DNA from: Yersinia alsatica | Lineage (GTDB): Bacteria; Pseudomonadota; Gammaproteobacteria; Enterobacterales; Enterobacteriaceae | Direction of reading: 5' to 3' | DNA: 64,000 bases | NCBI RefSeq assembly: GCF_902170305.1 | Contig: NZ_CABHWW010000023.1 | Location: forward strand, 186,001 to 250,000 | Shown here: positions 13,537-38,526 of the stretch, piece after piece | Layout of the letters: each line of letters opens with the position of its first letter | Numbering within the stretch: the stretch's first letter is position 1 | Notes under the pieces: generated by a model | What the model was told of the DNA's origin: nothing | Seen by the model: only the letters and a program-made list of their open reading frames with translations | Database searches by the model: none | Made by a program: the position numbers and the translations under genes

Positions 13537-13566
13537 AAATAGCAGCCTAACGCAGGGCTGCTATTT
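13537..13566. terminator. Bidirectional terminator between dhaM and the biosynthetic cluster
   Basis: A perfect 11-bp stem (aaatagcagcc 13537-13547 / ggctgctattt 13556-13566) with an 8-nt loop lies where dhaM (plus) and the glycosyltransferase gene (minus) converge. It overlaps the last codons of the latter. A and T runs on the two sides fit use in both directions. Confidence 0.7.
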
Positions 13567-14902
13567 GCGGAACTAAATAACCCAATGGCGTCAAAATTTG
13601 GTTTTTCCAGTTATATTGTTCTTTGATTAATGTGGCGCTGGCTTGCCTGATCTTATCTATTTCAAATGGGGTTAACTGGCACACTTGATGTATGACCTGC
13701 GCTAAATTGGCGGCATCCCCCGGATTATGCCGGAATCCATTAATACCATGCTCAACTTGCTCACTGAAACCACCTGAGTCGGCAACAACTAATAGTGCTC
13801 CCTGCTTTCTAGCCAACCAGCGTGACTCCATAGGAATCAATCCATTCGGCTCATTCTCAGCTGAAAGAACACATACCCGCGTATTACGCCATTGAATCAG
13901 GCATGCCATCAGTTCGCTATCAAACGAATGTACGATTGAGGATGGTATGTCGAGCAGGTCAGCTAATGCCGATAATTCCGGTAAAATAGGTTCACTCATA
14001 ATGACGGGATGGATTTCGCCATTCAGATAACTGCTAGCCTTAAGTAATAAGTCATGGCGTTTATAGCGCACTCCTCTTCCGAGCGTGATGGCCAGAGGAT
14101 ATTCCAGTGGTATTCCATGAGATGACAATGTGCGACTGATCTCGTGATCACTGCGTATTCGGAACCAAGGGTCATTGATATCGATTCCCGCAGGAACCGG
14201 TATCAATGTTTGTGGGGCCGCTCCGTATTGTGCCACTAAATGGTTGGCGAGAAAGTGGCTGATATGACCAATTTTAATAGTCGAATCATTCTTAGCCCAG
14301 TGGATGGGTAATGATTCAGCCATAAGACGTTCTGGATTAGGTAAAGGCATTTCATGATTAAATGCAGTGCCATGAGAAATATAAACAATCTTTAAATTAA
14401 CCCCTTCAAGAGCGGCGTGTAAGCTAGCAATTAAAGGGGTAAACGCGAATGACGGCTCATGACAGAATACTAAGGTAATATCATAGTTATCACTGATATC
14501 GATGACCTTTGCGGCCGCTGCAGCAGAGGATATTTTCCAATTTTGTAAGTCGCCAAGAAAAGTATCACCATATGGCCATAAACATCCCGCTCCTTTACCC
14601 AGAGTCATGTTTGGCACAGTGGAAAAGGTTCCCCGCATATGATGAATTTTATGTATATAACGAGCACGGCTGATCTTATCGAAGAATTCACTGTATTTAC
14701 TGCATGCAATTTCAATAAAGTGGGGTTCTAATTGAATGTTGTTATTAGATAAAAATTTAATCACTTCGGGTAAAACCTGAATTTGGCCTCTTATATAAGA
14801 GCCCACGCCACCGACAAAAATTTGAATGCCTTCGGTGGCTAAATGAATAATACCAATTTTTAGGCTGTTCCTACGGTGGTACTTAACTTTACGTCTTGGC
14901 AT
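13547..14902 (-). CDS. Glycosyltransferase, GT4-like (last gene of cluster)
   Basis: A 451-aa GT-B fold enzyme predicted to move a sugar from a nucleotide donor. The N-terminal acceptor half carries the usual glycine-rich loop (VGGVGSYIRGQ, about 31-41). The C-terminal half carries a donor-site motif of GT4 type (ENEPNGLIPMESRWLA), followed by GGFSEQVEHGINGF. There is no signal peptide or membrane helix, so it is cytosolic. GAGG precedes the ATG. It is the final gene of a six-gene minus-strand run. Donor and acceptor are unknown. It does not resemble the O-antigen polymerisation set (no wzx/wzy nearby). Confidence 0.75.
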   Translation of the reverse strand: MPRRKVKYHRRNSLKIGIIHLATEGIQIFVGGVGSYIRGQIQVLPEVIKFLSNNNIQLEPHFIEIACSKYSEFFDKISRARYIHKIHHMRGTFSTVPNMTLGKGAGCLWPYGDTFLGDLQNWKISSAAAAAKVIDISDNYDITLVFCHEPSFAFTPLIASLHAALEGVNLKIVYISHGTAFNHEMPLPNPERLMAESLPIHWAKNDSTIKIGHISHFLANHLVAQYGAAPQTLIPVPAGIDINDPWFRIRSDHEISRTLSSHGIPLEYPLAITLGRGVRYKRHDLLLKASSYLNGEIHPVIMSEPILPELSALADLLDIPSSIVHSFDSELMACLIQWRNTRVCVLSAENEPNGLIPMESRWLARKQGALLVVADSGGFSEQVEHGINGFRHNPGDAANLAQVIHQVCQLTPFEIDKIRQASATLIKEQYNWKNQILTPLGYLVPQIAALR

Positions 14903-14958
14903 AAAAACCTCGGTATTAACCAGAAAGTAAAATGATTATTGACTCAGATTATTACCTG

Positions 14959-16656
14959 TCATTTCTTAGAGATCTTATAGTTATTGATGAATAAGTAGTC
15001 TAAACCACAATTCAAAAATAAATGAATTGCATCAGCGGGTGTTTCCACTATTGGCATTCCTTTCGTATTCAACGACGTATTCAGTAATATAGGTATGCTG
15101 GTTTTCTCAAAGAAAGCAGTAATTAATGTATGGAATCTCTTATTGAGGTGTTGTTTGACGGTTTGAACCCGAGCACTGCCATCGACATGAACAATTGAAG
15201 GAAGGTCAGCCCGGTATTGTTCTTTTACATAAGCAATAAAGAGCATGTAATCACTGTCATGAGTTAGATTGAAATAGTCATGTGCTTCTTCATGTAAAAC
15301 CGCGGGTGCAAATGGGCGAAAATCTTCCCGGAACTTAACATTAATATTAATGTGATCTTTCATCTGGGGGTTACGAGGGTCAGCAAGAATGCTTCTATTG
15401 CCTAAAGCTCGTGGCCCAAATTCAGATTCTCCCTGAAACCAGGCAATAACGTGACCTGCCGCAATAGATTCTGCTGCCATGGTTTCAATATCATCATGAT
15501 GGCTGTACTCAATCTTATCCTCATGCTTTTCAAGTTCTGTTAGTACGCTAATATCATTATAATTTTTACCAAAGAATGTGGAGCCACAATGTCGAACTCG
15601 TTCTTTTTTAAGAACTTCCAGCCAGCCATAATAACAACAGCCAATAGAAAGCCCATTGTCGCCTGCCGCAGGCTGAATATAGAGGTGCTCAAACTCGCAA
15701 CTATTAATGAGTTTCTCGTTAGCTGTTGCATTTAAGGCTACACCGCCCGCGTAAGCAAAATTCTTCATAGGATGAAGTTGGTAGTAATAGCTAAATAGAT
15801 AGAATAGGGCTTCCTCAAGCTTGGTTTGTGCCCAGCAAGCCAGATCTGCATAGTATTGGAAGTTATCGCGAAAATGTGTCGGACGGCTATTCAGTAGTGG
15901 GTCGATATTTACCCACCAGTCATTACGTAATATCACTTTACCTGAATTGAAATAGAATGGTTGCCAGTCAATAATATTAGGCCTGCCATAGGGCGCTAGC
16001 CCCATTAATTTACCGGCACAATCAAGCTCACCAAAAATATACAGCGCAATTCCTTCATAAAATTCGCCAATAGAGTTTTCTATTTCCCATGTTGCTGCGG
16101 GGTATTCTTTCCTATTTTTACGATTAACCCAGCGGGAAAAATCTTTAAATATCGGTGTCATCCGGCCATTTTGATAAACGTAATAACTGCATGTCTCCCA
16201 GTAGCGATAGCGATTATTGATGTGGATATTGTTGGTGCCATGGATGTTTTCACTCAGATCATTACAGTTATCCAAGCTGCCGCCATGCCCATCAATAACC
16301 ACCACCCCCATATCATCAAAGGGTGATGTTCCTATTGCACTATAGGCATGTGCTAAATGATGAGAGAGTGTTACCACAGGAATCATGGGTGGCAATGTTC
16401 TATTCTTTCGATACTCTAATTGCTCACTAAATAATGGGCTATGCGAGTTTTGCTCGACGACCAGAGTGAGATCATTGTACTTAATACCTGCCGCATCTAA
16501 ACAATACTGAATAGTCGTATGATCATTAAATCCATCATGCTTTATTCTTGATACTCTTTCTTTTTCTACAGCGAATATAATCTCTCCATCTTTCATTAAA
16601 CACGTTGAACCATCATGAGAGAGTGCTGTGCCAAGAATATAAATAGGTTTTTGCAT
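14959..16656 (-). CDS. O-carbamoyltransferase, NodU/CmcH/TobZ family
   Basis: 565 aa, full length for the family that makes carbamoyl-adenylate from carbamoyl phosphate and ATP and passes the carbamoyl group to a hydroxyl. Visible signatures are the N-terminal fold ILGTALSHDGSTCLM, the LSHHLAHAYSA motif (His99, His100, His103), VVVIDGHGGS, and the C-terminal half with GESEFGPRALGNRSILADPR, RPFAPAVL and LLNTSLNTKGMPIVETP. Family members decorate Nod factors, cephalosporins and aminoglycosides. Beside two glycosyltransferases, the likely target here is a sugar hydroxyl (inference). It lies 56 bp upstream of the glycosyltransferase and 30 bp downstream of the GMC gene. Confidence 0.88.
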   Translation of the reverse strand: MQKPIYILGTALSHDGSTCLMKDGEIIFAVEKERVSRIKHDGFNDHTTIQYCLDAAGIKYNDLTLVVEQNSHSPLFSEQLEYRKNRTLPPMIPVVTLSHHLAHAYSAIGTSPFDDMGVVVIDGHGGSLDNCNDLSENIHGTNNIHINNRYRYWETCSYYVYQNGRMTPIFKDFSRWVNRKNRKEYPAATWEIENSIGEFYEGIALYIFGELDCAGKLMGLAPYGRPNIIDWQPFYFNSGKVILRNDWWVNIDPLLNSRPTHFRDNFQYYADLACWAQTKLEEALFYLFSYYYQLHPMKNFAYAGGVALNATANEKLINSCEFEHLYIQPAAGDNGLSIGCCYYGWLEVLKKERVRHCGSTFFGKNYNDISVLTELEKHEDKIEYSHHDDIETMAAESIAAGHVIAWFQGESEFGPRALGNRSILADPRNPQMKDHININVKFREDFRPFAPAVLHEEAHDYFNLTHDSDYMLFIAYVKEQYRADLPSIVHVDGSARVQTVKQHLNKRFHTLITAFFEKTSIPILLNTSLNTKGMPIVETPADAIHLFLNCGLDYLFINNYKISKK

Positions 16657-16686
16657 AATTAATATCCTTATTAATTTAGACTAAAC

Positions 16687-18189
16687 TCAATTGAGTAGGT
16701 ATGCGAGTCGGCGTGACAGCGCGAGTGTTGTTAGTGATGGATTAGCCGCGCCTGGCCGTGGGAAGGTACTCGGACCAACAGCAAATAGATTACTTATATG
16801 AGTAAACTCTTGGTTTTCGTCTAATATCTCACCCAGCGGCAGAGTACTGCTTTCGTGGTTTTCAGTACCAAGAGGACTGATCCATGTGATCGGTACATTA
16901 TAATTGACTATCCTTGATGAAGATCGAAACTGATTATGTACATCTCCCATGGTGCGGGCATGTGCAGTAAATTTAGTTTCAAAGGGCAAAGGTTCAAAAA
17001 GAATGTTGGTATCATTACAAATTTCGCACCAAAATATATTTAACTCATCTTTTTCTTTTTGTATTAATGTGTCTTCGGCATTACCTAAATCGCAAGAGAT
17101 AGATAATGGCATGGTTTTATTGTCGACTTCTGTGCTGATACAGCCATGAGCCGAAGGGATTTGTTCCCCCATGGTCCATACTTCTAATTCAATACCAAAA
17201 TCTGATGTGCTAATAGTAAAAAATAAATTAAATCGCTCACCACAGAGGCTGGGGCTAAAGAAGATAGCGTCGGGTTTCGCTTCAATGAGCTCTCTAAACT
17301 TACTGGGGATTTTATCTCGTTCAAAAGTTACATTAAATCCCTGCACAATATGGTCAACCAGGCCGGTTAATTTTTTTGCTATCAAATGCCCAGTATCGTG
17401 GAGTACTTGAGTGGCTAAACGTGAGTTTTCAATAGTACCTAGGGCAAGAACGCATTTATCAGCCCACACATGATGTATCTCATTAGTGCCCATATTTTTA
17501 AGTTTGGCACCAACGCATTTGCCATTCCTGATAATAAGCGCGATAGCTTCATATCCAGAAATAATGAGAGGGGGCATCCTCATTTGATTATTCTGTTTCC
17601 AGTAAGATAAAGGGGAGTAGGCTTCCCAGCGGCCCGATGAACCAATCATTCTGGTGACTTGAGGTGTGATCTTAAATTCGAAATTAGCAAATTTAAAAGA
17701 ATAGTCAGTTTCATGGCTCTTTCCTGCCCATGCCAACATTTCAGCCTGCACCCGAGTATAAAGTGCCGGACCTCCTAACCAACTTTCGGTGAGATCACGG
17801 ACAACGTTGGTGGGCCAGTATTTAAGAATGCTTGTTTCTATTGGCAGGATCACACCATGCCAATAAAGTGAGCGGCCACCCACCCTGCGGCGCAGGCAGG
17901 TTCCTTTCGAAAAATGAGGCTCACTTAATGAACGCCATGAGCGATAGGCATATTGATCGGCACTTTCATTTTTCCAAAATTCATCGGCGCGCAGGTAATC
18001 TTCTCCTGCATTAATATGATTGAAATCGTTAGCAGGACCGGCTTCAATAACAACAATATCTTCAACGTCTCTATTATTTAAATGCTTAGCTAACTCCAAA
18101 CCTGACATTCCGCCCCCTAATATAAGAACATTAATTTTGGCGGGGATATCGGGCGCTGTTTTTTGTATACAAGAATATCTGATATTCAT
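16687..18189 (-). CDS. GMC-family FAD-dependent oxidoreductase
   Basis: A 500-aa flavoprotein: dinucleotide-binding motif GGGMSGLELAKHL at about residues 25-37, GMC signature region GGRSLYWHGVILP, and the C-terminal FAD/active-site block VGPSTFPRPGAANPSLTTLALSRRLA. GMC enzymes oxidise primary or secondary alcohols of sugars and related compounds; some act in aminoglycoside biosynthesis as 6'-dehydrogenases. No signal peptide, so cytosolic. GAGGA precedes the ATG. The neighbours suggest oxidation of a glycosylated intermediate (inference). Confidence 0.82.
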   Translation of the reverse strand: MNIRYSCIQKTAPDIPAKINVLILGGGMSGLELAKHLNNRDVEDIVVIEAGPANDFNHINAGEDYLRADEFWKNESADQYAYRSWRSLSEPHFSKGTCLRRRVGGRSLYWHGVILPIETSILKYWPTNVVRDLTESWLGGPALYTRVQAEMLAWAGKSHETDYSFKFANFEFKITPQVTRMIGSSGRWEAYSPLSYWKQNNQMRMPPLIISGYEAIALIIRNGKCVGAKLKNMGTNEIHHVWADKCVLALGTIENSRLATQVLHDTGHLIAKKLTGLVDHIVQGFNVTFERDKIPSKFRELIEAKPDAIFFSPSLCGERFNLFFTISTSDFGIELEVWTMGEQIPSAHGCISTEVDNKTMPLSISCDLGNAEDTLIQKEKDELNIFWCEICNDTNILFEPLPFETKFTAHARTMGDVHNQFRSSSRIVNYNVPITWISPLGTENHESSTLPLGEILDENQEFTHISNLFAVGPSTFPRPGAANPSLTTLALSRRLAYLLN

Positions 18190-18250
18190 TCTATATCCTC
18201 TAATGGAAAATATTTAATTTAAAAAGATATTATTTAAAATTTTAATCATA

Positions 18251-19657
18251 TCATCCGTGTTGCAGTCGATGTGTAAACTCCTCCCAGGGTTCCTGAGGAA
18301 ATTTAGATTGAACAAGTCGTTTATTGCTGGCTAATCGGATTTTTATCTCTGCTTCTCCTGATGCATGCATTCGTATCCATTCAAATAGCTGCTGGGCCGC
18401 TTCTATAGGACAATCTGGAACCACTTTTATATGGTGATATTCTGATCCATAAAACTCGGTGAAAGCGGAATACTCTGTTACTGCACACGGAACTCCTGCA
18501 ATAGCCGCCAGAGCTGGCCCTAAACCGACACTTTCCACATTTTCTACGTTTGGGGTAAATAAAACTGCACCGGATAATGTATGGCAGATAATGAGCAAGT
18601 CAATTTCATCTAAATACCATTTATTATTTTTATTCTTATATGTCTGAAGTGGGACTTCATCCAAAAATATGATGTCCTCATTAAGGCCCAGTAAGTCAAC
18701 CTGTTCTTTTAGATAATAGGCATATTCGGGATCTTCATTCACATTACCAAATATAAGTAGTTTGGGGAGGGCTAAGTTATGCTCTTTATAAATAATTAAT
18801 AACGAATTAAATACACTGATTGATATCTCGATACCTTTGACTCTAAATATCCTGACCGGAACTATAATAATAGATGAATTTGTAGAGATATTATGTTGCT
18901 TTAAAAAATTAATATGAATGTTACTAAAATTTGAAACATCTACATCAGGTAATATATTCGGGATCACATCTGCCGTCAGTTTTGTTGGATAATTCTTGCT
19001 TTCATTGGCGAGTGCCTCTGACGCGACTATCCATTTAGTGTAGATATTATCCTGTGGTATTGGTGTTAAAATATTTGGGATTTCAGGGTACAATCTTTCC
19101 GCTTGTTCATAGATAGCATAGCTACTAAAGAGGTCGTGATCCCAGAAAATGACACCACCATAGCCTTTTCCATCCCAGTATTTTCTGGCTGCATTATGGA
19201 TGGCCAAATTGACCGGCACAGCATCCGAGAGTGTCATGTTTAAACAGAACAGCCAATCAATGGCATTGTCTTCAAGCCAGTGAGTGAAATAATTTTGGTA
19301 GCACTCAGACATTGAATCGATCTCTTTTTTAATCACGTTGATTTCTATTTTACTTAAGGTGTCATATTTTGCTACTTTACTTCTGATATTAATAAATTGG
19401 GCATTGAAATTTTCACTGTATGTTGAGTATTGGTGAATTGAATTTACTTTCATCCATGTTGGATAATGTGAATCTTGGCTACCATAAGGGAAAAAATTGA
19501 CTTTATCTGGTCGCCATGAAAAGCCTAAATCTGTCGGTATCTGATCAAAGATAATATTTTTTCTCATGGCTATTTCAACCACGTTTCTGAATATGGTTAG
19601 TAGGCCACTGGTAGGGAGACCATCTCCTGATATAAGAGCCCACTTCATTTTCTTCAT
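18251..19657 (-). CDS. Glycosyltransferase, GT-B fold
   Basis: 468 aa. I chose the start at 19657 (MKKMKWALISGDG) because AGGAGA lies 7 bases upstream; an upstream in-frame ATG at 19678 has no such site and would overlap the previous gene. The second Rossmann half is clear: IIIVPVRIFRVKGIEI, LLIFGNVNEDPEY, then a donor motif (ENVESVGLGPALAAIAGVP) and AFTEFYG. It is more divergent than the 13547 gene. AT-rich codon use (many ATA, AAT, TTA) is unlike the flanking dha and scr genes. Predicted to be the second sugar-adding step. Confidence 0.7.
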   Translation of the reverse strand: MKKMKWALISGDGLPTSGLLTIFRNVVEIAMRKNIIFDQIPTDLGFSWRPDKVNFFPYGSQDSHYPTWMKVNSIHQYSTYSENFNAQFINIRSKVAKYDTLSKIEINVIKKEIDSMSECYQNYFTHWLEDNAIDWLFCLNMTLSDAVPVNLAIHNAARKYWDGKGYGGVIFWDHDLFSSYAIYEQAERLYPEIPNILTPIPQDNIYTKWIVASEALANESKNYPTKLTADVIPNILPDVDVSNFSNIHINFLKQHNISTNSSIIIVPVRIFRVKGIEISISVFNSLLIIYKEHNLALPKLLIFGNVNEDPEYAYYLKEQVDLLGLNEDIIFLDEVPLQTYKNKNNKWYLDEIDLLIICHTLSGAVLFTPNVENVESVGLGPALAAIAGVPCAVTEYSAFTEFYGSEYHHIKVVPDCPIEAAQQLFEWIRMHASGEAEIKIRLASNKRLVQSKFPQEPWEEFTHRLQHG

Positions 19658-19667
19658 TATATATCTC

Positions 19668-20849
19668 CTAAGGTCCATTATTTAATTTAATCAATTTTGA
19701 TGATAATATATTTGTCAGCATTAGCATTACTAGGCAACTGATAAATATGGCTAAAAATGAAATTCTTAAAGATGTTTTATCTGCTAGCATACCTATTAAT
19801 GGCGGTGCGACTAGCAGGCCAACTCGTGACATCCAAGTGGCGAAGGTGATCCCACTGGTTGCATTTATATTTGGTAGTTGGCCAATAAATGATATTGCTA
19901 ACGGAAATACTACCGATATCCCTAAGCCAATTAACGAAAATCCCAGTATGGTAGAAACAAATGAGTTGATAGCTATGATTAACATTACACCTAGAGCTGA
20001 TAATGTAATCCCACATTTTAGAATGGTTATTCTGCCAAATCTATTAGTAAAATAATCACCAAAAATACGGCCAACAACCATTAATATTTGACATGCAAGA
20101 TACGGTAAACCTGAAACGGCAGATGAAACATCATATGAGTCCTTCATGTATATTGCTCCCCAGATACTTGCTGTTTCTTCTATTGCACATGTAAATACAA
20201 GTATAATTAAAGCGAGAGTAAATAGTTGTTTTTCTAGTCTTTTTATATCTTGCTGTGTATTTCTCTGTGGAATAAATTTATTATCTATCTTTGTACTGCG
20301 GAAATATATTATATAAATAATAAGCATGATTAAATTAATAGATAATACAGCAAGACTAAATTTTTCCATTGAAAGACCAAAACCAATAGCGGATACCGCG
20401 ATGAGCCCTCCCCATATAGTTCCAATACTGCCTGCACCATGGAGGCGATTGATCAAACTTCGCCCATATAGCTTTTGTATATTGATGGCCTGTACATTGA
20501 TGCAGGTATCACCCCAGGAGTCAAAAATACCGAATAGAAAAAGTAATAATACAATGGCATACCATGATGACGAAAATGAAACTATTGATGTGCTAATAAT
20601 TAAGCATAGAAAACTAATGCTAGTCGCCCAATATAATCCGATAAAATTAATAAATCTTTTAGAAAGTAATCCAAAAGTAATTGATCCAGCAGGTATTGCT
20701 GATACCATTACGCCAACCATATAATTATTAAGATTAAACTTTTCCTTTATGTCTGGAATCCATGGAACCAAACTGGCATATACAACCCCATGAATAAAAA
20801 ATAGTATTGCTAAAGTAAGGCTTTTTTTTCTTTGTGTTTTTATCGTCAT
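19668..20849 (-). CDS. Major facilitator superfamily transporter, putative exporter
   Basis: 393 aa with 12 predicted transmembrane helices; the loop between helices 2 and 3 (SKRFINFIGLYWATS) is of MFS type. Arrangement and length recall the YfmO/FucP-like and drug-efflux branches, but I do not recognise the subfamily. It lies inside the six-gene run, 25 bp after the dioxygenase and 10 bp before the next start. The simplest reading is export of, or self-protection from, the cluster product; uptake of a precursor is the alternative. Confidence 0.78.
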   Translation of the reverse strand: MTIKTQRKKSLTLAILFFIHGVVYASLVPWIPDIKEKFNLNNYMVGVMVSAIPAGSITFGLLSKRFINFIGLYWATSISFLCLIISTSIVSFSSSWYAIVLLLFLFGIFDSWGDTCINVQAINIQKLYGRSLINRLHGAGSIGTIWGGLIAVSAIGFGLSMEKFSLAVLSINLIMLIIYIIYFRSTKIDNKFIPQRNTQQDIKRLEKQLFTLALIILVFTCAIEETASIWGAIYMKDSYDVSSAVSGLPYLACQILMVVGRIFGDYFTNRFGRITILKCGITLSALGVMLIIAINSFVSTILGFSLIGLGISVVFPLAISFIGQLPNINATSGITFATWMSRVGLLVAPPLIGMLADKTSLRISFLAIFISCLVMLMLTNILSSKLIKLNNGP

Positions 20850-20874
20850 TATGATTTTTTCGTTATTTTTATAG

Positions 20875-21741
20875 TTAGGATATAAAGTTGAAATCGAAAC
20901 CTAATATATTTCTATAGCCTATACCTAAAGATATATTTTTTAATTTTATTGGGGTCACCTTATGCCATATAGTTGAGTGCTTATCTATATGAAATAATCC
21001 CTCGCCGCGCTCTAAAGTATGTGATTTAATGATTTCTTTTTTTTCAACACAATAGAGTTCGCTGGTGCCGCCTTCAATATTGTATTTATCAATAACTAAT
21101 GCGGATACAATATAGTTGCTCCCATCTTGATGCAGACCTTCGGGTGAGTTACACACTGAAGGTATTGAGCTATCAATAATTAAAGACATTTGATGGCAAG
21201 TCACTTCTATTTTTTTTAGTTTTACCTGAGGTTCGCATTCACAAAGCATTTCTATACATTTTTTAATAAGAATTCTCAGCAGAATTGACTGGGTTGTTGT
21301 CTTGTCCATCGGTGGAAATCTACGTATTAATTTCCGCAAATCTAACGGATGGTCTGCACGTTGAGCAAAATCTGTTAGTTCTGGGAGGGTAACATGATTG
21401 ACTTCCCATTGTTTGTTGACGTATTCAACCATAAATTGGCTAATACCTCTTTTTCTAAAAGGTTTATAGGCGTGAAATTTCCGCTGATCTTCTATGGACA
21501 AGCTTGATATTAATTCTTGAATGCTATTGGGGACTATTCTCCCGTCAAGAAAACATTGAGCCTCTTGTAAAATTACTTTTTTATCATTGATATATTTAGT
21601 TATCAAGAATCTCAACTGAGACAGTTTTATGTCATTTTTATCCCATCCTAATGATTTAAATGATATCTCTTTTTTTAATTCAATTATATTTACGCCAAAT
21701 TCATTTATATTAAATTGAATTATTTTATATTTAATACCCAT
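20875..21741 (-). CDS. 2-oxoglutarate/Fe(II) dioxygenase (PF10014-like), first gene of cluster
   Basis: A 288-aa protein. The C-terminal half has the facial triad of Fe(II)/2OG enzymes: His204 and Asp206 in PEGLHQDG and His260 in IWHKVTPI, with the NIEGGTSELY block typical of the 2OG-Fe dioxygenase family PF10014. Characterised members (isoleucine dioxygenase, BsmA type) hydroxylate free amino acids. The N-terminal 120 residues are divergent. It is the first gene of the cluster, with the promoter presumably in 21742-22255. The substrate may be an amino acid, or a residue in the cluster product (inference). Confidence 0.75.
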   Translation of the reverse strand: MGIKYKIIQFNINEFGVNIIELKKEISFKSLGWDKNDIKLSQLRFLITKYINDKKVILQEAQCFLDGRIVPNSIQELISSLSIEDQRKFHAYKPFRKRGISQFMVEYVNKQWEVNHVTLPELTDFAQRADHPLDLRKLIRRFPPMDKTTTQSILLRILIKKCIEMLCECEPQVKLKKIEVTCHQMSLIIDSSIPSVCNSPEGLHQDGSNYIVSALVIDKYNIEGGTSELYCVEKKEIIKSHTLERGEGLFHIDKHSTIWHKVTPIKLKNISLGIGYRNILGFDFNFIS

Positions 21742-22255
21742 GATTAAAATATCCTATTTTACTAAGAGTTATTGATTTTTTATATTGATATAAATAAAAC
21801 ATACAAATTTAATTATATTAAAACGCTCAATTTCTGAGTTATGTTTTAATCTTTTTTTAATTTCTTTATTTTTATATATCAAAGATTGTCCTGCGGCAAG
21901 TTTTATAAAAACACATTTATATGTATATTTTTCAAATTATATTTAACGAATTTGTTTTTATTTACTGTTTTGTATGAGTCTATTTTTCTTATTATTTTTA
22001 TAAATAATTTATTCAGGTAACTCTTTTTCGTTACTTCTTTATTCTACAGTGTGAGATGTTTTTCATTTAAAGTGGAATGAATAAAATCTCATATGATCGG
22101 GTCTGGAGATAATGTTAGAAATGTGATCTGCATAAGTGGAATGGCGTTTCATTTTGTGTATTGTGTATTTTCACTACTAAAGTCATCCTTCAATTAATCA
22201 ATAATAACGTAAGGTGAGTTTAATCTGGCGAGTATTAGTCACTAAGGAATATGAG
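21742..22255. other. AT-rich divergent intergenic region
   Basis: About 510 bp of very AT-rich DNA between the minus-strand cluster and the plus-strand pectinesterase gene. It must hold both promoters. I see no coding frame. A candidate KdgR-like site is listed separately. Confidence 0.6.
22134..22155. promoter_or_regulatory. Candidate KdgR-like operator upstream of pectinesterase
   Basis: aagtggaatggcgtttcatt resembles the pectin-regulator KdgR box (TGAAA, short spacer, TTTCAT) with an imperfect left half. It lies about 100 bp before the pectinesterase start. Low-confidence match by eye. Confidence 0.3.
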
Positions 22256-23338
22256 ATGCCAATTAATTTTCTGGGTAAAACACTATTGTTAGGGTTAATG
22301 TCATTTGCTGTATTGGGTGAGGTAAGTGCACAGTACAATGCTGTGGTTTCTATGGCCCCTCAGGGAAATGAGTTTTCCTCGATTAATGCAGCGTTGCAGT
22401 CAGCTCCAGTGGATACCTCTCCTTTTGTTATTTTCCTTAAAAATGGCGTTTATACCGAAAGGCTTGAGATAGTGCGGGCGAATGTTACGTTGAAGGGAGA
22501 AAGCCGGGATAGCACGGTGATTGGTGCTGATACTGCCGCGGGTATGCTTAATCCACAAGGTGAAAAATGGGGGACTTCAGGCAGCAGCACGGTATTAGTG
22601 AATGCACCAAACTTTACCGCTGAAGATCTCACCATTCGTAATGATTTTGATTTTCCAGCCAATAAGAAAAAAGCCGATACCGACCCGACAAAATTAAAAG
22701 ATACCCAAGCCGTGGCACTATTATTGGCTGAAAAAAGTGATAAAGCACGTTTCAAGAAAGTGAAACTTGAGGGCTATCAGGATACGCTTTATAGCAAAAC
22801 AGGTAGCCGAAGCTATTTCACTGATTGTGAAATCAGTGGTCATGTTGATTTTATTTTTGGCTCTGGTGTCACCGTATTTGATAATTGCGATATTGTGGCC
22901 CGCGATCGCAGTGATATTGAGCCACCTTATGGCTATATCACGGCTCCCAGCACATTAAAAACGTCGCCCTATGGTTTGATATTTATGAATAGCCGTTTGA
23001 CGAAAGAACCTGGCGTCCCAGCCAAAAGTTTTGCTTTGGGCCGTCCATGGCATCCAACCACCACCTTCGATGATGGTCGTTATGCCGATCCGGCGGCTAT
23101 TGGTCAGGCTGTATTTATAAATACGACGATGGATGACCATATTTATGGTTGGGATAAAATGTCCGGTAAAGATAAGCAAGGTGAGAAAATTTGGTTCTAT
23201 CCGCAAGATTCGCGCTTCTTTGAGGCAAACAGTCGGGGTGCAGGGGCTGAAATCAATGCAGAGCGCCGCCAGCTATCAACCGAACAGCTAAAAGCTTTTA
23301 CTTTGCCTATGATTTTCCCTGACTGGATTGTTTATTAA
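22256..23338 (+). CDS. Pectin methylesterase, CE8 family
   Basis: A 360-aa secreted enzyme removing methyl esters from pectin galacturonates. Starting at 22256 (AAGGA 8-12 bases upstream) gives a typical signal peptide (MPINFLGKTLLLGLMSFAVL) cut near VSA-QYN. CE8 motifs are all present: GYQDTLY (Gln/Asp), HVDFIFGSG (catalytic Asp) and LGRPWHPT. It resembles PemA/PmeA of pectinolytic enterobacteria. It stands alone between the cluster and dhaR, with no pectate lyase gene here. Confidence 0.92.
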   Translation: MPINFLGKTLLLGLMSFAVLGEVSAQYNAVVSMAPQGNEFSSINAALQSAPVDTSPFVIFLKNGVYTERLEIVRANVTLKGESRDSTVIGADTAAGMLNPQGEKWGTSGSSTVLVNAPNFTAEDLTIRNDFDFPANKKKADTDPTKLKDTQAVALLLAEKSDKARFKKVKLEGYQDTLYSKTGSRSYFTDCEISGHVDFIFGSGVTVFDNCDIVARDRSDIEPPYGYITAPSTLKTSPYGLIFMNSRLTKEPGVPAKSFALGRPWHPTTTFDDGRYADPAAIGQAVFINTTMDDHIYGWDKMSGKDKQGEKIWFYPQDSRFFEANSRGAGAEINAERRQLSTEQLKAFTLPMIFPDWIVY

Positions 23339-38151: not shown

Positions 38152-38238
38152 TGGTGCGAAGGGAGGGACTTGAACCCTCACGTCCGTAAGAACACTAACA
38201 CCTGAAGCTAGCGCGTCTACCAATTCCGCCACCATCGC
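38152..38238 (-). tRNA. tRNA-Leu (CAG)
   Basis: 87 nt including encoded CCA. The minus strand reads GCGATGGTGGCGGAATTGGT at its start, with a long variable arm and anticodon CAG within GCTTCAGGTG. The acceptor stem has a U5-U68 mismatch. It is the last of three tandem copies in transcription order. Confidence 0.97.
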
Positions 38239-38295
38239 ATGTGCTGTGCAATATAAATCTTTACTGCTGAAGTTGCTCATTGAGAAAGAAATGTT

Positions 38296-38382
38296 TGGTG
38301 CGAAGGGAGGGACTTGAACCCTCACGTCCGTAAGAACACTAACACCTGAAGCTAGCGCGTCTACCAATTCCGCCACCATCGC
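38296..38382 (-). tRNA. tRNA-Leu (CAG)
   Basis: Middle copy, identical in sequence to the other two, with CCA encoded. It is separated from both neighbours by the same 57-bp spacer, giving an exact 144-bp repeat unit. Confidence 0.97.
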
Positions 38383-38439
38383 ATGTGCTGTGCAATATAA
38401 ATCTTTACTGCTGAAGTTGCTCATTGAGAAAGAAATGTT

Positions 38440-38526
38440 TGGTGCGAAGGGAGGGACTTGAACCCTCACGTCCGTAAGAACACTAACACCTGAAGCTAGC
38501 GCGTCTACCAATTCCGCCACCATCGC
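38440..38526 (-). tRNA. tRNA-Leu (CAG)
   Basis: First copy in transcription order, equivalent to the E. coli leuQPV cluster beside rsmC. The promoter should lie in 38527-38680 on the minus strand. Confidence 0.97.

Follow-up and report, generated by a model that had tools for sequence, protein, structure and literature searches.

A cluster of six minus-strand genes in Yersinia alsatica, spanning positions 13547-21741 of the window (the whole 64,000-nucleotide stretch analysed here), is conserved in content, order and position in most Yersinia species, evolves under purifying selection, carries a shared promoter-like element and encodes members of recognisable families with intact motifs. We somewhat favour the interpretation that it is the operon of an old specialised-metabolite pathway, so far confined to Yersinia, by which a small glycosylated, carbamoylated and oxidised molecule would be made and transported. 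More tentatively, the product may be an exported and as yet undescribed glycoside or pseudo-oligosaccharide, carbamoylated, C-hydroxylated and keto-oxidised by six genes that include no NRPS, PKS or dedicated scaffold synthase. Yersinia is well studied, yet the locus is seemingly undescribed: we found no paper on it in the open-access literature on Yersinia with carbamoyltransferase or GMC oxidoreductase. The absence of PKS, NRPS and scaffold enzyme may hide such a cluster from standard cluster finders, and conservation of such a pathway under selection in 19 of 25 species would imply that its metabolite plays an enduring role in these bacteria.

Architecture, composition and upstream region

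The initial annotation had assigned the six families to this locus. All six open reading frames are present with the coordinates and strand first given (Table 1), and Pfam agrees with the families, the GMC enzyme being recognised by its 38% full-length match and motif residues. In transcription order they encode a PF10014 dioxygenase, an MFS transporter, a GT-B glycosyltransferase, a GMC oxidoreductase, a carbamoyltransferase and a GT4 glycosyltransferase, separated by 25, -11, 61, 30 and 56 bp. The 11-bp overlap between the MFS and GT-B genes becomes a 10-bp gap if the latter starts at Met8 (19657), which is the likely start because aligned homologues have stops upstream of that codon. The operon-like layout proposed at the outset is thereby borne out (gaps of 25, 10, 61, 30 and 56 bp), and a single transcript would span all six genes. 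No resistance or regulatory gene was found in the operon.

The cluster is, as first noticed, more AT-rich than the dha and scr genes on both sides (GC 32-43% vs 48-53%), with third-position GC of the six genes as low as 25-39%. The adjoining pectinesterase gene (GC 44%) is likewise somewhat AT-rich; this PemA-like gene is variably present or missing among Yersinia species, with or without the cluster. Farther along the window lie three tandem tRNA-Leu genes.

Upstream of the first gene, a 29-bp block (TTGCcGAAaAGagATCTTTGAgATATAAA) is conserved in all 17 readable upstream regions, with a mean column identity of 0.92 vs 0.63 for the whole upstream region across these 17 Yersinia species. The block reads as a -35/-10 pair with 17-bp spacing, that is, a predicted promoter, and its spacer is unusually conserved, which suggests a putative regulator site within it. 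The element at 21871-21899 is the only perfect match in both window and genome, and the exact pattern derived from the block matches most related loci. A general promoter scan gave no excess over shuffled sequences and skipped the conserved block, whose -10 hexamer ends in a base that the scan's rules do not admit.

Table 1. Features of the cluster and its surroundings (window coordinates)
Feature	Position	Strand	Basis or remark
Promoter-like element TTGCCG-N17-TATAAA upstream of gene 1	21871..21899	-	conserved block; predicted
PF10014 2OG-Fe(II) dioxygenase, operon gene 1, 288 aa	20875..21741	-	Pfam 2e-23
MFS transporter, 393 aa	19668..20849	-	Pfam MFS_1 1.5e-32
GT-B (GT4-like) glycosyltransferase	18251..19678	-	Glycos_transf_1 weak, 1.8e-5
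GMC-type FAD oxidoreductase, 500 aa	16687..18189	-	38% full-length match to Streptomyces GMC; H445, N483 invariant
NodU/TobZ-type O-carbamoyltransferase, 565 aa	14959..16656	-	Carbam_trans_N/C
GT4 glycosyltransferase, LmbT-like, 451 aa	13547..14902	-	Glycos_transf_1 7.9e-10; E351-x7-E359 motif
PemA-like pectinesterase	22214..23338		beside cluster
Tandem tRNA-Leu(CAG) x3	38152..38526		57-bp spacers

Distribution, descent and loss

Each of three cluster genes (carbamoyltransferase, GT-B and GT4) occurs in 19 of 25 Yersinia species, the window's included; for the carbamoyltransferase the identity is 78-91%. All carriers that we read share gene order and site: the cluster is flanked by dhaM and, at its other end, by pemA or dhaR. 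Two draft assemblies break off within the cluster, and order was judged wherever the contig allowed. Because the identical order recurs at one site in other Yersinia genomes, the arrangement is not due to chance. Contigs related to the window's are named Yersinia frederiksenii, proxima, pekkanenii, massiliensis, aleksiciae and aldovae. In a pattern-based scan of 84,980 species, which misses distant relatives, the GT-B gene was found only in Yersinia. Setting aside the window's own genome, we found no relative of the GT-B protein among 369 sampled Gammaproteobacteria and no full-length relative of the GMC protein among 399 sampled Pseudomonadota, and the GT-B gene was absent from all plasmid records searched. 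Carbamoyltransferases of other Enterobacterales (G052, G054, G027 and Moellerella) were considered as members of the same system and set aside, their genomic settings being unrelated.

Ratios of dN/dS are 0.05-0.17 for the six cluster genes and 0.00-0.12 for their neighbours, and dS in the cluster ranges from values similar to those of the neighbours to about two and a half times as high. The cluster proteins evolve faster than the neighbouring proteins. Their distances track those of the dha genes (Mantel rho 0.81, a value reached in 0 of 999 permutations), and on this ground we conclude that the cluster has been inherited mostly by descent, under purifying selection. The low GC content is no sign of recent acquisition, as 18 of the 24 other Yersinia species carry the cluster, mostly by descent; a recent horizontal island is ruled out by this descent together with the fixed position in 19 species.

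Six of the 25 species lack the cluster. In one of them (G014) 33 residues in the gap between pemA and dhaM still match the final part of the GT4 gene; the E-value is just 0.13, but the position is as expected, and from this remnant G014 has probably lost the cluster. In three others (G001, G009 and G012) dhaM abuts dhaR and is only 66-67% identical to that of the window; judging from this junction and the divergence of dhaM, these may have branched off early, without ever having held the cluster. Decay is also visible among carriers: the GMC gene of Y. aldovae (G010) is interrupted by stops and a frame break, its GT-B gene by a frame break, and the MFS gene of G021 may be broken. Elsewhere, in most carrier species, the cluster genes are intact. 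The neighbourhood search that the initial annotation had proposed therefore finds the six genes together in other genomes, all of them Yersinia, and the contrary outcomes named there (no co-occurrence elsewhere, a capsule or O-antigen setting, inactivation of several genes) are not what the genomes hold.

Encoded families and candidate chemistry

The first gene product carries a PF10014 domain (83.5 bits vs a Pfam cut-off of 23.1) and an HxD...H triad (H204, D206, H260) that, together with R277, is invariant in the alignment, which places it among the PF10014 2OG-Fe(II) dioxygenases; its closest relatives with structures are 9dqp and BsmA-domain proteins. No solved relative of the MFS protein was found by sequence. 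The GT-B protein matches Glycos_transf_1 just under the Pfam cut-off and, weakly, mannosylglucosylglycerate synthase. Its predicted structure matches the GT-B fold on a low-confidence model (pLDDT 58), used for the fold call only, and a GT4-like fold is accordingly a prediction. The GMC protein is borderline in Pfam (24.5 vs a cut-off of 24.6 bits) and its predicted model (pLDDT 39) was too poor and was set aside; we assign it because of the 38% full-length match to an annotated GMC oxidoreductase and the invariant His445 and Asn483 in GMC-like motifs. The carbamoyltransferase has both domains of the TobZ/NodU family (Carbam_trans_N 1.2e-30, Carbam_trans_C 5.1e-70), with invariant HHxxHA and PRALGNRS motifs.

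These families and their layout support the earlier idea of a small-molecule tailoring pathway. In one possible order of reactions, two cytosolic GT-B transferases would add sugars to a small acceptor supplied by primary metabolism or by the environment, a secondary alcohol on the ring of a sugar or cyclitol would be oxidised to a ketone by the GMC enzyme, the dioxygenase would hydroxylate a carbon, and the carbamoyltransferase would cap a hydroxyl using carbamoyl phosphate and ATP. The MFS protein would carry the product or a precursor across the inner membrane, and the product might serve competition, signalling or interaction with plants or soil. Because homologies outside the genus are all 22-38%, substrates are not readable from homology.

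Two glycosyltransferases beside a NodU/NolO-type carbamoyltransferase, whose family includes enzymes that decorate oligosaccharides, would suit a different end: a cell-surface glycan (lipopolysaccharide or capsule) decorated with a carbamoylated sugar. We regard this as quite improbable because no flippase, polymerase or initiating transferase was found in or beside the cluster, which does not read as a capsule or O-antigen locus, and because its neighbours in the loci read are dha, scr and pemA. The same neighbours could point to uptake and modification of a plant-derived glycoside, whether catabolic or detoxifying, with the MFS protein as importer, since sequence does not fix the direction of transport. 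That too seems a slim prospect: the operon has no glycoside hydrolase or kinase, glycosylation and carbamoylation are biosynthetic in character, and several species have no pemA next to the cluster, while G014 has pemA but no cluster.

Other carbamoyltransferase genes occur in these genomes. In some Yersinia a second NodU-type cassette, consisting of a SagB-like nitroreductase-family dehydrogenase, a carbamoyltransferase and an MFS protein, lies between acrB and dhaD (L013:1909-5791, L014, L015 and L018; decayed in L016), about 9 kb from the main cluster; it is absent from the window. The window's own genome (G000) has, on contig C34 (L017:6303-10995), another carbamoyltransferase gene by a DXD glycosyltransferase and a GT25-GH16 fusion, in a stretch that holds several transposase and resolvase genes.

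Comparison with known systems

The dioxygenase shares the PF10014 domain and the candidate metal-binding triad with the HilB/IDO amino-acid hydroxylases, but it scores 26.7 bits against the HilB model, far under the cut-off of 350, and differs by an additional N-terminal segment of about 90 residues. The carbamoyltransferase has the two-domain architecture and motifs of TobZ, NovN and GdmN (1e-68 to 1e-74 against the NovN, GdmN and TobZ structures) and is about 35-37% identical to the nearest plasmid-borne relatives found.

The one strong solved relative of the GT4 protein is LmbT (8il0/8ila, 3e-34), the profile match covering nearly its whole length. Structure 8ILA is LmbT of lincomycin biosynthesis, whose nucleotide- and ergothioneine-contact residues are Trp258, Arg260, Thr289 and Arg290 (PMC12945683). 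As read from the alignment, the GT4 protein retains only the diphosphate-binding Arg260 of these four, a departure from the LmbT type, and its sugar donor is probably different because the base-contact residues are not kept. As LmbT is the only strong solved relative, the GT4 enzyme might form a thioglycoside with ergothioneine or a related thiol as acceptor, giving a sulfur-containing product. With Trp258 and Arg290 replaced and no EgtD found in the genome, we give this very little credence; no lincosamide or ergothioneine genes were found here. A distant GT4 relative lies on Agrobacterium plasmid pAt1D1460 (L049:3984-9326), in a separate uncharacterised cluster with an EgtB-like gene, several glycosyl- and methyltransferases, and LuxR/LuxI-type genes nearby.

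The closest GMC relative found (38% over full length) is encoded at an aminocyclitol-type locus (L043) on a plasmid of Streptomyces sp. NBC_00853, where it adjoins an AroB-like cyclase, a DegT aminotransferase and an annotated inosamine-phosphate amidinotransferase; an annotated 'streptomycin biosynthesis protein' there matches only helix-turn-helix models and is regulator-like. Both enzymes belong to one GMC subfamily, with the motifs GLRRRxGGRSLYW and LGTExHExxT in common, and by this subfamily match the Yersinia enzyme may act on a ring as in aminoglycoside clusters. Another relative (34%) comes from a Roseibium plasmid; its neighbours there are phytanoyl-CoA-type dioxygenases, a DegT gene and a radical SAM gene. 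The Yersinia cluster differs from L043 in having no AroB-like cyclase, DegT aminotransferase, amidinotransferase or kinase.

A narrower form of our main interpretation would have the product be a carbamoylated cyclitol glycoside (a pseudo-di- or trisaccharide) whose core is scavenged myo-inositol or an inosose from the iol pathway, with oxidation by the GMC enzyme. Besides the aminocyclitol setting of the GMC relative, iolD scores above its cut-off in 17 of 19 cluster-bearing vs 3 of 6 cluster-free species, an association that is weak, cluster-bearing G005 and G022 lacking iolD, and that we reject as proof of an inositol scaffold. The genome encodes no cyclitol synthase: the absence of an inositol synthase noted for the locus extends to the whole genome, which has no inositol-phosphate synthase (PF01658) and no spare AroB-like cyclase, its single PF01761 gene being presumably aroB. 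Neither the six genes nor the genes next to them include an aminocyclitol-forming aminotransferase, and the cluster has no amidinotransferase. We therefore consider this specific product unlikely.

Because neither a ring-forming gene in the genome nor an amination gene in the cluster was found, we do not class the locus as an aminoglycoside or aminocyclitol cluster. The analogy with aminoglycoside tailoring drawn in the initial annotation nonetheless gains from the two nearest relatives, a GMC enzyme from a cyclitol/amidinotransferase cluster and, for the GT4 protein, LmbT: it is the tailoring part of aminoglycoside and aminocyclitol clusters, or that of a pseudo-oligosaccharide pathway, that the Yersinia gene set resembles.
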